Assembly (NCBI GenBank): GCA_017640485.1 | Contig: JAEPQP010000015.1 | Coordinates: 1-34,812, forward strand | Length of the DNA: 34,812 bases | DNA from: Phycisphaerales bacterium | Lineage (GTDB): Bacteria; Planctomycetota; Phycisphaerae; Phycisphaerales; UBA1924 | Reading direction: 5' to 3' | Shown here: one piece after another, positions 28,909 through 34,812 of the stretch | Layout: each line of letters starts with the position of its first letter | How positions within the stretch are numbered: the first letter of the stretch is position 1 | Notes under the pieces: model-generated | Told to the model about the DNA's origin: nothing | The model's database searches: none | The model's input: only the letters and a program-made list of their open reading frames with translations | Translations under genes and position numbers: made by a program

Positions 28909-30357
28909 TTACGGACAGCCTTGGTTGTAGAGGCCAACGAATGTGCTGAGATCGAAGAAGTCCAGGACGCCGTCTTCGTTGAGATCCGCGATTTCGTACT
29001 GATCGTTGAACAAACTCAGGTACAGTCCGATATCGAAGAAGTCCACATTCCCATCCTCATTCCAGTCGGCCGGGCAGAGCTCGACTTCAGGACTCAGATC
29101 GCAGGGCAGCCCATCAAGGTACTCCAGAATCGCGTCCTGGACTCGCGGGTGTAGTCGCAGATCGATGTTGGAGAGTCCTCCAGGGCAGGTGTGGCAGTAC
29201 GACATGATGGTCGAGTCGAGCGCGTCGGAGCAATCGCCGTTGCCGCACCCGTCGATGATTGGTGTGTAGGAATCGTGCGTGTGTCCGGTCCCGAAGTTAT
29301 GTCCGAGTTCATGGGCAACAACCATGATGTCCCAGTTGCTGTGGGAGTTGTCTTGGAGCGGATTGGGGAAGAACCCGTTGAGGTTGGCGCTGACCCCGAT
29401 GCTCCAGAAGTTGTCGCAGGTTGATGGGAAGTACGCGACACCACCACCCAGATCGCGGGCGCTGAGCCCGTGGACATTGGAGCGTTCGATGCTCGCTTCG
29501 GGTCCGCTGTTGAACTCGTCTTGAACGCGATCGAGGAAGACCCCGATATCGTCGCCGCCGTAGGGATCGTTGTTGGTTTCGTAGGTACGCAGGAACGAGA
29601 GTGAAACAGTCATGTTCACATCGCGGTCGTAGATCGTTGATACAGCGGCAAAGAGCGCCGAGGCATACGACGCCGCGGCTTCGGTATCCCCCGCAAACAG
29701 ATTATTTGAGAACTCAAAGTCGGTATCCACAGCGATGGTTGCGTTGCGTGGTGGACCAAACCCTTGATTTTCCGATGTTTCCGCTGCTTCACGCTTGGGG
29801 CTCATGCTCAGTCCGAGCGGATTGAATCGGGGGTTGTTGACATCGACGCCGCAGTTCTGTCCGAGTGGTTCGATCTCAAGAAGATCCGATGGGAAGACGG
29901 TCAGGTCTCCCGCGGCTTTACCGTTCTGAGAATACACACCGGTCGAGATCACATGAGGTTGTCCCTGAAACTCGATGTACCCCGAGGTCCCGAACCGGGT
30001 CACGGCGATGTACGCGATCTGCGATTCGTCGCTCGCGAGATGACCACGCAGGTGGATGTCGCTCGAGAGATCGATCGGGCGTTCGTTCCCCTGAGCATCG
30101 ACGGAAACGATCAGCGCGTTGTCTGTGAAGGGATTGAATCGTTCGAGTTCGAGCTGGATCTGGGATCCGTCGAGCATCGTAATAGGCAGTTCCACAAGAT
30201 CACCGATCCGGACTTGCGAGAGCACGCTGACATTCGTGAGCGCGGCGGTGGTTGAAGCGTGCTCGATGGTGTGGACATGGGCTGGCTGTGATCCAGCGAT
30301 GGCAGAGAGGGACATCGCCGAGGATGCGGCGGCGGCGAGAAGGAACGGCATCGACAT
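28909..30357 (-). CDS. Reprolysin-like (M12-type) secreted metalloprotease with GC-type dockerin tail
   Basis: VVAHELGHNFGTGHTHD; signal MSMPFLLAAAASSAMSLSAIAG; tail CPADWNEDGNVDFFDIG...QGCP. Confidence 0.88.
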   Translation of the reverse strand: MSMPFLLAAAASSAMSLSAIAGSQPAHVHTIEHASTTAALTNVSVLSQVRIGDLVELPITMLDGSQIQLELERFNPFTDNALIVSVDAQGNERPIDLSSDIHLRGHLASDESQIAYIAVTRFGTSGYIEFQGQPHVISTGVYSQNGKAAGDLTVFPSDLLEIEPLGQNCGVDVNNPRFNPLGLSMSPKREAAETSENQGFGPPRNATIAVDTDFEFSNNLFAGDTEAAASYASALFAAVSTIYDRDVNMTVSLSFLRTYETNNDPYGGDDIGVFLDRVQDEFNSGPEASIERSNVHGLSARDLGGGVAYFPSTCDNFWSIGVSANLNGFFPNPLQDNSHSNWDIMVVAHELGHNFGTGHTHDSYTPIIDGCGNGDCSDALDSTIMSYCHTCPGGLSNIDLRLHPRVQDAILEYLDGLPCDLSPEVELCPADWNEDGNVDFFDIGLYLSLFNDQYEIADLNEDGVLDFFDLSTFVGLYNQGCP

Positions 30358-30606
30358 CTGGTGAGACTCCGGTTTGGATCGTTGAATGGCGAATGCATGC
30401 TGTGGTTCGGGAAAACCAAGCCGTGCGGGAACAGCGCCCTGACGATCGATGAACAGAATGGTGGTACACAACGTGGGGAGAGTTCCCCTGAGTGGATATC
30501 CAATGATTCGGGGTGCTGATTCAATCGGTTCCCTCCAGCGTGCGTGAATTCGCGGTAGATTCCAACGAAATGGGTGATTTCTGGTCGATGCCGTTCGCTT
30601 GCGCGT

Positions 30607-30660: not shown

Positions 30661-32337
30661 TTACTCGTCGTCTTCGTCGCCGTCGACGAGCGGTCCCATG
30701 GTTTCGGGCTCGGGTTCCGGCGCGGACTTGCATGTGAGCAAGATGCCTGCACCACCGATTGCTGAGAGCGCGGACGCGACCAGGATCGCGAGTTTGGCGT
30801 GCTCAAGATGGGTAATGCTGTCGGCGTACGCGAGGTTGGCGATGAAGATGGCCATGGTGAATCCGATGCCGCCGAGCATGCCGGCGCCAAAGATGTGTCT
30901 CCAGCTCACGCCGCGTGGGAGCGACGCGATTCCGATCTTGCATGCGAACATGCAGAAGAGTGCAATCCCGACGGGCTTCCCGACAAAGAGGCCGAGGATG
31001 ATACCGATCGCTGCTGGATCGCTGAGATTCTCGCTGATGCCGCCGTGGATCGGGATCCCCGCGTTGGCGAGCGCAAAGATCGGAATGATCACAAACGCGG
31101 CCCATGGGTGGAGGACATGCTCCATGCGATGGAGTGGTGGGAGGACGAGGCGCGAGTTGTGCATGATCGCGTTGACCGCTGCACGGCGTTCTGAGGACTG
31201 GGTCACTGCGATATCCGGATCATCGTGTGCATTGGCAAAGACATCGAGCGCTTTGCGGGTTGAGAACACGAAATTGACCGGATTGACTCGTGCGTGCGCT
31301 GGGATGGTGACCGCGAGGAGCACGCCCGCGATGGTCGCGTGCACGCCGGACATGTAGACGCAGTACCAGAGCGGGAGACCCAGCACAAGGTACAGCGTGA
31401 TCCATCGGACACGGAGCACATTCATGAACATGAGTACCGCAATGATTGAGCCGGCGTATCCAAGATACGCCATCTCTAGGTTCTCGGTATAGAAGACCGC
31501 GATCACGACCAGCGCGCCAAGGTCATCGACGATCGCGAGACTGGTGAGGAAGACTTTGAGCGAGTTGGGGATGCGTGATCCGAGCATCGCGAGGATACCG
31601 ACGGCGAACGCGATATCGGTCGCCATGGGGATTCCCCATCCGGAGATGGTTTCTTTCCCGAAGTTGAATGCAACAAAGATCAATGCCGGGCCGACCATAC
31701 CGCCGAGAGCACCGAAGATCGGGAGTGCAGCACGCTTGGGTGATGCGAGCTCACCTACGAGGATCTCGCGTTTGATTTCAAGACCGACGACCAGAAAGAA
31801 GACCGCCATGAGGAGGTCGTTGATCCAGTGGACCATCGAGAGTCCCTGGTACCAGTGTGGTTCTTTGGGGAGCGGGTGCCAGCCGTCGCCGTGACCTGCA
31901 GCGTGATGATCGTCGTGATGAGGATCTTCGTGGTCTGCTGTGGTGTTTGTCAGATCCGCGGCGAGTTCTTGGGTTTCGTCGAGGAGCTCGTTGACGACAT
32001 CGTCGTGATCATCATGATCATCTGCGTGATCACTCCCAGCAATAGCGGCTGAATCGTGAGCGTCGTCATCGTGATGACCATCGCCGTGATCTCCCCCGCC
32101 GTGCTTATCGTGGGGGTTGTCGGCGACGGTGATGCGGATCTCGGTATCGTTGAAGATCTCTTTGTAGCTGTCGTAGTCTTTGTTCGCCCAGATCATCGCG
32201 ATCGCGGTCATGAGCAGGAGGATGATCCCACCTGAGCTGGAGAGCGATGCGAATCGTTGGAAGGGACGCGCCAAGCGTTCACCCGGCTCTGGGTTCAGGT
32301 CGGCTGCAGCGGTGGGGATGTGATGGTCGTCTGACAT
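30661..32337 (-). CDS. nhaA: Na+/H+ antiporter NhaA with long His/Asp-rich insert
   Basis: SSSGGIILLLMTAIAMIWAN, HWINDLLMAVFFLVVGLEIKREIL, GWGIPMATDIAFAVGIL, SLAIVDDLGALVVIAVFYT; TAGGAG SD. Confidence 0.94.
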   Translation of the reverse strand: MSDDHHIPTAAADLNPEPGERLARPFQRFASLSSSGGIILLLMTAIAMIWANKDYDSYKEIFNDTEIRITVADNPHDKHGGGDHGDGHHDDDAHDSAAIAGSDHADDHDDHDDVVNELLDETQELAADLTNTTADHEDPHHDDHHAAGHGDGWHPLPKEPHWYQGLSMVHWINDLLMAVFFLVVGLEIKREILVGELASPKRAALPIFGALGGMVGPALIFVAFNFGKETISGWGIPMATDIAFAVGILAMLGSRIPNSLKVFLTSLAIVDDLGALVVIAVFYTENLEMAYLGYAGSIIAVLMFMNVLRVRWITLYLVLGLPLWYCVYMSGVHATIAGVLLAVTIPAHARVNPVNFVFSTRKALDVFANAHDDPDIAVTQSSERRAAVNAIMHNSRLVLPPLHRMEHVLHPWAAFVIIPIFALANAGIPIHGGISENLSDPAAIGIILGLFVGKPVGIALFCMFACKIGIASLPRGVSWRHIFGAGMLGGIGFTMAIFIANLAYADSITHLEHAKLAILVASALSAIGGAGILLTCKSAPEPEPETMGPLVDGDEDDE

Positions 32338-32539: not shown

Positions 32540-33898
32540 TCAGTGCTGGAAGGGGTACAAGGCTGGAAGATCCAGAATCTGGGTCAGTTCGTCGAGGATC
32601 TCGATACACGACTGGGCAAGTGCCGGGTCGAGCAGATCCGACTGGTTGAGTTCATCGGGGTAGCTCCGTGAGACAAAGTCCACAAGTTTGGCGTGGAGTT
32701 CATCGGTCAGGATGACCCCCTGGTGCACCGCACCGAGTTCGGTGTCCGAGAGCGGGACGCGGAGGCGCAGACATGCGGGTCCACCGCCGTTGCGCATTGA
32801 TTCGCGAACATCCAGGTAGTGGACGGCGTTGACCGGGTTCGCGGTATCCGCGACCATCGCATCGATGAACTTGGACACGCGCGGGTTCTCAGAGGATTCG
32901 AGTGGCGCGATCAGAGCCATGGACTGATCGGGGAGTGTGACGATCTGGGAGTTGAAGAGGTACGACTTCACCGCGTCTTCAAGGGAGAAGTCGGTATCGT
33001 GCGCTTCGATCGGGATCAGGGGTTGGCCGAGCGGAGCAGCAAGATCGGTCAGCATGGATCGGGAGGTCGCGAACGCTTGCTCGTGATAGAGGAAGACCCG
33101 CTCATTTCCCGTCGCGATGACATCGTTGTGGAAAACACCCGCATCGATCGCGTCTGGGTGCTGTCGCGCGAAGACGACGCGTGACGCGTTGAGTTTGTGA
33201 TTCCGGACAATCGCTTCGCACGCGGCCCGTGTCTGTCGCGAGGGATAAGTGCGGGCGGAGTTGGACGGATCGTGGACATCGACGCCATAGACGAAGAGTT
33301 CGATCCCAGGCTCGCCGTGGGTGTTCGCAAAACGGACGTGGTTCGCGGCTCCTTCGTCGGCGAATCGTGCTTGCGTGGGGAGGGGATCATGAACAGTGAA
33401 GTGATCCGGGTTCTTGAAGATCATCCGCAGGGCGCGGGTCGTGGTGGGGTGCTCGATCGATCGGTGGAGATTTGACACGAGGTTTGCGGGGGTCAGGTGT
33501 ACCTTGTGGTCCGCGGTGTCGGGGCTCGGAGAGACCGTCGCGGCGTTGGCAGCCCACATGCTGCTGGCGCTCCAGACCGCTGCGAGCAGGGTGGGATCCG
33601 CGTCGTTGGCTTGTGCGAGCAGGTGGGCATCCGGACCTTCAAATCCGATCGCTCGGAGGAACGCGAGGTCGGGTCGTTGCTGAGGAGGGAGGACGCCTTG
33701 CGTGAGACCAAGATCCATCAGCGCCTTCATTTTCGAGAGCCCCTGGAGCGCCGCGGCTTTGGGTTTAGAGATCCCCCCGGCGTTGGAGAGCGAAGCGATG
33801 TTCCCAGCGGACAAGCCCGCGTAGTTGTGCGTCGGGCCGATGAGTCCATCGAAGTTGACTTCTTGGAAACCGCGTGGTGTCGTGTCGTTCATTGGCAT
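32540..33898 (-). CDS. astB: N-succinylarginine dihydrolase-like protein
   Basis: REVNFDGL-like EVNFDGLIGPTHNYAGLSAGNIASLSNAGGISKPKAAALQGLSKMKALMDLGLTQGVLPPQQRP is characteristic of AstB; GGGPACLRLRVPL near the C-terminus. ATG at 33898 (or 33892). Confidence 0.92.
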   Translation of the reverse strand: MPMNDTTPRGFQEVNFDGLIGPTHNYAGLSAGNIASLSNAGGISKPKAAALQGLSKMKALMDLGLTQGVLPPQQRPDLAFLRAIGFEGPDAHLLAQANDADPTLLAAVWSASSMWAANAATVSPSPDTADHKVHLTPANLVSNLHRSIEHPTTTRALRMIFKNPDHFTVHDPLPTQARFADEGAANHVRFANTHGEPGIELFVYGVDVHDPSNSARTYPSRQTRAACEAIVRNHKLNASRVVFARQHPDAIDAGVFHNDVIATGNERVFLYHEQAFATSRSMLTDLAAPLGQPLIPIEAHDTDFSLEDAVKSYLFNSQIVTLPDQSMALIAPLESSENPRVSKFIDAMVADTANPVNAVHYLDVRESMRNGGGPACLRLRVPLSDTELGAVHQGVILTDELHAKLVDFVSRSYPDELNQSDLLDPALAQSCIEILDELTQILDLPALYPFQH

Positions 33899-33934
33899 GC
33901 GAGAGGATAGGTGCAAACTTGCCGGGAGCTTGGT

Positions 33935-34812
33935 CTATTTGGGCGGGACCGGTCGGCCGTGCGGATCGATCTGGCAGTCGGAGATCGGCACGGTCGTGTT
34001 GAGATGCTCAAGATGCTCGGCGATCTCGTGGACATTGTCCGGACGGATCCCCGCTTGATCGACGAGGTACCCCTCCCAGAGCCGGTGGCGACGGATGATC
34101 CGAGCACCCTCCTGACGACCCAGATCCGTGAGTTGGATCGAGTCTTGTGATTGAGTCACGAGTCTGTTTCGGATCGCGATCGAGAGGATCTGATTGAAGT
34201 CAGCAGAATGGAGCGTCGCTCGGAGAGATTGAGTCTGGGTCAGTGTCTCTCCGATCTCGTCATTCCTGTAGAGGAGCCCGATCAGGTCTTCGACGGCGAT
34301 CGTTCGGCGGAGTGCTCGTTGGCGGGCGGCTTTCGCGATCAGCCCGTGTGTTGGTGACGCGATCGCCGCGAGCGCGACCAGGAAGCCTGACACAGTGGTC
34401 ATCACCCCTGCGGCGTTGAGCGAGCTGGGCATCCCCATCGCTTCAGGAACAAACGATGCGAGGATGTACCCGATGACTGCAGCGGAAACCGCGAACACGG
34501 CGCTGAGTTTGATCTGCATCGATAAGCGATCGGTGCACAAGCGTGCGGTCGCCGCGGGACAGATCAGCATCGCGATGACGAGGATCGACCCGACCGCTTC
34601 AAAGGACGCGACAGCGCACGCGGCGGTCATCACCATCAGCATCGTGCTCATGAGTCCTGCGTGGACCCCCTGCGTGGTCGCGAGTCCAGGATCAAACGAT
34701 GCGATCCGGAGCTCCTTGTGGAGCGCGACTTTGAACCCGAGCACGATGATCGTCAGAATGATGAGCGTTGTAACCTGTGTCGGGATCTCGGACAGCGTGC
34801 TTCGCGAGAGGA
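33935..34812 (-). CDS. Metal ABC transporter permease (ABC-3/ZnuB-MntB type) fused to a DtxR/MntR-like regulator (5' truncated by window edge)
   Basis: The frame stays open to 34812, and the upstream codons encode more membrane segment (LSRSTLSEIPTQVTTLIILTIIVLGFK). Permease region AGLMSTMLMVMTAACAVASFEAVGSILVIAMLICPAATARL; C-terminal IRNRLVTQSQDSIQLTDLGRQEGARIIRRHRLWEGYLVDQAGIRPDNVHEIAEHLEH...DCQIDPHGRPVP is DtxR/MntR-like. Confidence 0.88.
   Translation of the reverse strand, partial: LSRSTLSEIPTQVTTLIILTIIVLGFKVALHKELRIASFDPGLATTQGVHAGLMSTMLMVMTAACAVASFEAVGSILVIAMLICPAATARLCTDRLSMQIKLSAVFAVSAAVIGYILASFVPEAMGMPSSLNAAGVMTTVSGFLVALAAIASPTHGLIAKAARQRALRRTIAVEDLIGLLYRNDEIGETLTQTQSLRATLHSADFNQILSIAIRNRLVTQSQDSIQLTDLGRQEGARIIRRHRLWEGYLVDQAGIRPDNVHEIAEHLEHLNTTVPISDCQIDPHGRPVPPK

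Follow-up and report, generated by a model that had tools for sequence, protein, structure and literature searches.

Both permeases of a predicted planctomycete Mn/Fe importer end in DtxR/MntR-like modules that may serve as tethered metal sensors

The gene at the end of the window, i.e., the whole stretch of 34,812 nucleotides analyzed here (contig C59 of a Phycisphaerales bacterium), is best explained as encoding perm2, the second of the two permeases in an Mn/Fe importer of the TroA/MntABCD type, each of which ends in a DtxR/MntR-like module. We consider it rather probable that these tails are tethered metal sensors that inhibit the transporter by feedback (trans-inhibition) and probably do so as a heterodimer of the DtxR type, with transcription handled by a stand-alone MntR. 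Sensing metal at the transporter and curbing its uptake is the most likely role, since the metal site of the tails is kept, their DNA-reading sequence is not, and a separate repressor is present.

The window holds the C-terminal part of perm2 (33935..34812, minus strand), namely about 291 of the roughly 447 codons that make up this second permease gene in a metal ABC operon of the TroA type. Its single open frame (33935-34810) of 291 amino acids is stop-free up to the contig end, where it runs off. The first-pass annotation had described it as a one-frame fusion of a metal permease and a DtxR/MntR-like repressor, and this is borne out by Pfam, phmmer, AlphaFold2 and Foldseek. The Pfam family ABC-3 (PF00950) matches residues 11-126 (E-value 1.1e-18, 68.2 bits versus a cut-off of 20.1) and Fe_dep_repr_C (PF02742) matches residues 228-270 (E-value 1.4e-13, 51 bits versus 27), so that the profile search does recognize the C-terminal region as DtxR/MntR-like; a match to the DNA-binding domain PF01325 was not found by Pfam in the window protein. 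In phmmer searches the tail resembles solved DtxR-family repressors as far as its DPHG-P-P end (5zr4, E-value 2.4e-9) and the other half of the frame matches the Mn permease PsaBC. The permease part with the last transmembrane helices spans 34358..34810 (-). At the other end, the C-terminal DPHGRPVPPK (33938..33967, -) corresponds to the end of DtxR domain 2 and is followed by no SH3/FeoA domain.

The metal-binding/dimerization block H242..H269 (HRLWE ... VHEIAEHLEH; 34004..34087, -) is delimited by PF02742, the ligand positions and conservation. The DtxR ligands H79, E83, H98, E105 and H106, for which counterparts had been read by eye, are all present as H242, E246, H261, E268 and H269, and the position of C102 is indeed taken by a glutamate (E265). 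The block also contains W245, the counterpart of W82 (DtxR numbering). Upstream, D175 (34286..34288, -) aligns with D8 of MntR, which we take from B. subtilis MntR to be a helix-1 ligand, and about 90% of perm2 tails retain this aspartate.

Three further genes of the window lie on the same strand. Immediately downstream of perm2, an AstB succinylarginine dihydrolase is encoded (32540-33916, PF04996, E-value 4.2e-194), followed by an NhaA-type Na+/H+ antiporter (30661-32337, PF06965, E-value 5.6e-140). The latter has an unusually long His/Asp-rich stretch before its conserved part (GGGDHGDGHHDDDAHD...HHDDHHAAGHGDG), a composition suggestive of metal binding. A reprolysin-like M12 metallopeptidase (28909-30471, PF13688, E-value 5e-20) has a C-terminal stretch resembling a dockerin-type repeat.

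The AlphaFold2 model of perm2, built from 67 aligned fused permeases, has a mean pLDDT of 88.8, and the modeling of the C-terminal domain advised by the first-pass annotation shows the winged helix in full, together with the dimer helices. Membrane helices extend to residue 151 and are followed after about five residues by a 30-residue helix (residues 157-186; 34253..34342, -) that runs on as the first helix of the DtxR fold. The winged helix-turn-helix (HTH; 34127..34252, -) comprises helices 193-199 and 202-214 and a wing at 218-227, and the dimer helices span residues 229-251 and 257-270. Foldseek matches the model to DtxR, IdeR and the Mn repressor DR2539 (MntR), with a target TM of 0.76 across the 137-residue two-domain chain for DtxR/DR2539. 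The modeled perm1 tail of Thalassoglobus neptunius has the same fold and superimposes on DNA-bound DtxR at 1.7 Å across 118 residues. An intact HTH fold is seen in both models. The idea that a loss of DNA binding would be visible as a loss of positive charge was rejected, as the HTH blocks of the tails are slightly more basic than those of the stand-alones (net charge +3.3 versus +0.7). Given this intact fold and basic block, the modeled tails may still be able to bind DNA.

The same architecture and gene order are found in the chlamydial fusion YtgCR, whose tail undergoes cleavage and binds DNA. The tail, released or still tethered, would by this analogy be a metal-dependent repressor of its own operon, which we regard as distinctly unlikely here. 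Retention of the DtxR fold including the winged helix and the basic HTH block speak for such a repressor, yet the model has a helix continuous from the membrane into the tail instead of an exposed linker, and each transporter carries two different tails. Internal translation initiation was rejected as a source of a free tail because the window has no in-frame start codon near it.

The rest of the permease and the ATPase and binding-protein genes, to be sought beyond the contig end according to the first-pass annotation, were found in the same genome. According to a profile search, contig C27 carries the first half of perm2 at its right end (profile positions 9-120, compared to 125-240 for the half in the window, which holds about two thirds of the gene). 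These N-terminal 151 codons (L005:7903-8355; PF00950, 83.3 bits) are collinear with the window half when compared to six relatives, with about 5-6 codons absent between the contigs. The complete perm2 thus counts about 447 codons, similar to its relatives (448 in L075). No exact overlap exists between the ends of C27 and C59, and the join is based on homology. The operon on C27 (L005:4750-8355) encodes, in this order and with genes overlapping by a few bases, the substrate-binding protein (SBP), the ATPase, perm1 and the start of perm2. Its SBP belongs to the ZnuA/TroA family (E-value 4.6e-79 to the ZnuA family) and has TroA as nearest relative among solved structures (E-value 3.5e-70). Perm1 (431 amino acids) also ends in Fe_dep_repr_C (36 bits), and both permeases are consequently tailed. 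A second, unfused permease of this genome is located on contig C211 and is of the zinc type as judged by its neighborhood.

The conservation pattern within the fused proteins is uneven. Mean pairwise identities for the permease core, the HTH and the H79-H106 block are 50, 22 and 70% in perm1 and 51, 22 and 60% in perm2, while stand-alone MntR proteins reach 57% for the HTH and 62% for the block. The 22% of the tail HTH corresponds to background identity. Likewise, PF02742 is matched in 77/77 fusions from the class, 89/90 cross-phylum fusions and 46/46 stand-alone relatives, versus 0/77, 1/90 and 45/46 for PF01325. A profile of the stand-alone HTH gives a median of 0 bits in tails versus 84 in stand-alones, the latter having served as its training set. 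At the position of the recognition helix (residues 202-214; 34169..34207, -), stand-alone MntR has GVSHVTV-R. The tail HTH is thus unconserved in sequence and is not recognized as a DNA-binding domain, which argues against a repressor of the YtgCR kind. In the block, by comparison, W82, E105 and H106 are invariant and H79 is kept in at least 90% of the 77-sequence alignment. W82 is present in 73/73 class tails and 80/87 cross-phylum tails but in 6/42 stand-alones and is therefore a feature of fused tails, whereas the counts of H79, E105 and H106 in that survey follow by construction, as these residues formed the search anchor. As far as sequence conservation can tell, the pattern says that selection in most of the sampled lineages maintains the sensor but does not maintain the DNA-reading surface. 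The single PF01325-positive cross-phylum fusion originates from Chloroflexota (L161:635-2137); as the only tail scoring as a DNA-binding domain, it could represent a genuine permease-repressor in a phylum other than Chlamydiota.

The same cells encode a separate regulator. All 40 fusion-bearing class genomes tested encode a stand-alone PF01325 DtxR/MntR protein, which further disfavors a repressor function of the tails; among 42 operon loci scanned, 22 gave a match to such a protein. In the genome studied here it is a 155-amino acid E. coli-type MntR (L014:3745-4212, contig C122). Upstream of the SBP gene two tandem palindromes occur, ATGTAGCACATGCTACTT and TTGTAGCAAATGCTACAA. This pair represents the only matches to TGTAGC-N4-GCTACA, with up to one mismatch, in the 2.89 Mb genome, compared to 52 matches per strand for the reversed control pattern. 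Related palindromes are found 5' of the SBP gene in five other loci (L076, L077, L078, L082, L091). Thirteen of the 61 genomes of the order contain an exact copy, whose coordinates place it in the operon 5' region in seven of them and near an operon-linked mntR in three more. We take TGTAGC-N4-GCTACA to resemble the E. coli MntR box; a literature search for the palindrome as this box gave no match. The stand-alone MntR is thus, judging from these sequences, probably the true repressor of the operon. Together with the 22% HTH identity, the near-zero HTH scores and the lack of PF01325 in all 77 class fusions, the 40/40 stand-alones and the MntR-box-like palindromes at the promoter tell against the earlier proposal of a transporter that sheds its own repressor.

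The co-occurrence of homologous dimerization helices within one cell, with regulator genes that often adjoin the operon, could also mean that the tails capture the stand-alone MntR in mixed dimers or buffer entering metal, linking transporter load to repressor activity. We hold this to be very unlikely, as the dimer blocks of tails and E. coli-type MntR differ in length and sequence and most stand-alones lack W82.

Outside the class, PF01325 is matched above the cut-off in 25 of 30 cross-phylum genomes, one of the matches in the L161 genome being the fused protein itself; no such match was obtained in the Citrifermentans and Magnetocorallium genomes. Some single-permease lineages have a weak stand-alone DtxR match or none, and for these the tail itself may serve as repressor, or another regulator may do so. 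In Thermodesulfobacteriota, Deferribacterota and Nitrospirota, single-permease tails (L130, L168, L122, L135) mostly carry H98/H102, unlike DtxR or MntR, and several genomes of this group are without a clear stand-alone DtxR.

The double fusion is conserved in Planctomycetota. A tailed permease is present in about 39 of the 61 sampled genomes of the order (hand count of matches past query residue 345), and the same fusion as in the window was seen in a further 76 permeases of the class. Most of the 40 class operons fetched have both permeases tailed, with an untailed perm2 in L114 and an untailed perm1 in L093 as exceptions. A profile scan of genome contigs extends single or double fusions to at least 17 named phyla among the matches listed, plus four unassigned records, a listing that shows presence and not prevalence: Planctomycetota, Thermodesulfobacteriota, Deferribacterota, Acidobacteriota, Nitrospirota, Chlorobiota, Bacillota, Armatimonadota, Chloroflexota, Actinomycetota, Woesearchaeota (an archaeal metagenome-assembled genome), Pseudomonadota, Latescibacterota, Gemmatimonadota, Verrucomicrobiota, Bacteroidota and Krumholzibacteriota. 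Since many records are metagenome-assembled genomes, phyla with a single record call for caution. Cultured species are represented by Thalassoglobus neptunius (double fusion) and by Blastopirellula marina and Algoriphagus (single fusion). This recurrence in the class and across phyla indicates that the fusion is no assembly accident. According to a review (PMC5599777), such fusions were found in 11 phyla by Thompson et al. (2012), and these orthologs suggest that the chlamydial mechanism may be widespread. The architecture is thus neither new nor specific for the PVC superphylum.

Three layouts occur: one tailed permease, two tailed permeases, and a tailed perm1 with an untailed perm2 (Bacteroidota, Verrucomicrobiota), the last being, as we understand it, also the layout of chlamydial ytgABCD. 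In a permease tree from which the tail columns were excluded, clades follow operon position (perm1, 36 rows, support 100/99; perm2, 36 rows, 100/100; single permeases, 31 rows, 96/91) and at least five changes between tailed and untailed states are seen. The perm1 clade has tails in every row except one. It contains Planctomycetota and Verrucomicrobiota, among the latter those with fused perm1 and unfused perm2, but also Bacteroidota, KSB1, Latescibacterota, Gemmatimonadota and Krumholzibacteriota. Judging by this span, the fusion either predates the PVC superphylum or is more mobile than it, and the common PVC ancestry considered in the first-pass annotation proves too narrow.

Two variations on the layout deserve mention. 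In two Actinomycetota (L171:3986-5578, Sanguibacter; L182, Saccharopolyspora), a permease gene is directly followed by a separate dtxR gene, which is a plausible source of the fusion and a possible pre-fusion layout. In two single-permease fusions (L096:2592-4106, L115:4001-5515) the tail extends into an SH3/FeoA-like third domain, and their operons encode an additional protein of about 170 amino acids between SBP and ATPase; FeoA was matched in 11 of the 90 cross-phylum fused proteins.

In paired systems, the two tails carry distinct signatures, D98/D102 in perm1 and H98/E102 in perm2. The rule that perm1 has D98/D102 whenever perm2 is tailed fits most loci but was rejected, as it is broken by L114, where perm1 has D98/D102 next to an untailed perm2, and by L097-L099. 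In view of these exceptions, and since a single change on the tree is possible, the signature is no evidence for a heterodimer. It would also suit tails that are assembly or stability modules only, pairing perm1 with perm2 around a structural or vestigial metal site, as would the conservation of dimer helices and metal block. We judge this unlikely: the ligands are held more strictly than the permease itself, and many transporters have one tail, be it by an untailed perm2 (Bacteroidota, Verrucomicrobiota) or by loss of one tail (L093, L114).

In the tethered-sensor model that we favor, the DtxR-like modules of perm1 and perm2 would be held in the cytoplasm directly below the membrane domain and would form, next to the ATPases, a dimer like that of DtxR. 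In a replete cytoplasm the paired tails would bind Mn2+ (or Fe2+), and the metal-loaded tails would lock the transporter, while transcription of the operon would be controlled by the stand-alone MntR, presumably bound at the TGTAGC-N4-GCTACA sites. In single-permease systems a tail homodimer would do the same job. The start of the tail helix about five residues past the last transmembrane helix supports such a brake, and a precedent exists in the MetNI and ModABC importers, which are trans-inhibited by their substrate at a dimer of C-terminal regulatory domains (PMC10710835). The sensed metal leans towards Mn, given the sequence evidence of a TroA-type SBP, an MntR-type regulator and E102; YtgR uses Fe. 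Counting against a brake are the intact HTH fold, the location of the precedent domains on the ATPase and not on the permease, the fact that the studied fusion, YtgCR, yields a repressor, and the several single-permease fusion lineages with a weak or no stand-alone DtxR match. The fuller proposal, that an asymmetric two-tail sensor shuts the importer directly, that MntR controls the genes and that the fusions across phyla are mostly not repressors, is tentative and has in our estimation somewhat less than an even chance. If true, one metal sensor family acts at two levels on one operon, with direct metal feedback on an ABC-3 importer. Following the chlamydial example, permease-DtxR fusions have been interpreted as transporters from which a repressor is released. 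Our literature searches yielded no description of such a direct control level in Mn/Fe uptake.

Among known systems, YtgCR (CT069, encoded in ytgABCD of Chlamydia trachomatis) is closest in architecture. The resemblance pointed out by the first-pass annotation is real: in both, one frame joins an ABC-3 permease to a winged helix and a metal/dimer domain of the DtxR kind. The partner permease YtgD is, we assume, untailed. The SBP-ATPase-permease-permease operon is common to both and the DtxR metal ligands are conserved (PMC5599777). In contrast to YtgCR, whose tail is cleaved and binds DNA, both permeases are fused here, the DNA-reading helix is unconserved and a stand-alone DtxR/MntR is present; homology between YtgCR and these tails is deduced from architecture. 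The transporter itself resembles Treponema TroABCD and MntABCD/PsaABC in its SBP (nearest to TroA), permease structure (nearest to PsaBC) and operon order. Whereas the DtxR-type regulator of the tro operon, TroR, is a separate gene, here the permeases themselves carry two additional, fused DtxR-like modules. The E. coli-type MntR of the same genome belongs to the same family as the tails and shares the conserved metal/dimer block but, unlike them, has PF01325 and the family-conserved GVSHVTV recognition helix and lacks W82. The likeness to MetNI and ModABC is confined to the proposed mode of action, in which cytoplasmic substrate acts on a dimeric C-terminal domain to stop transport, and implies no membership; their regulatory domain has a different fold and resides on the ATPase subunit (PMC10710835).
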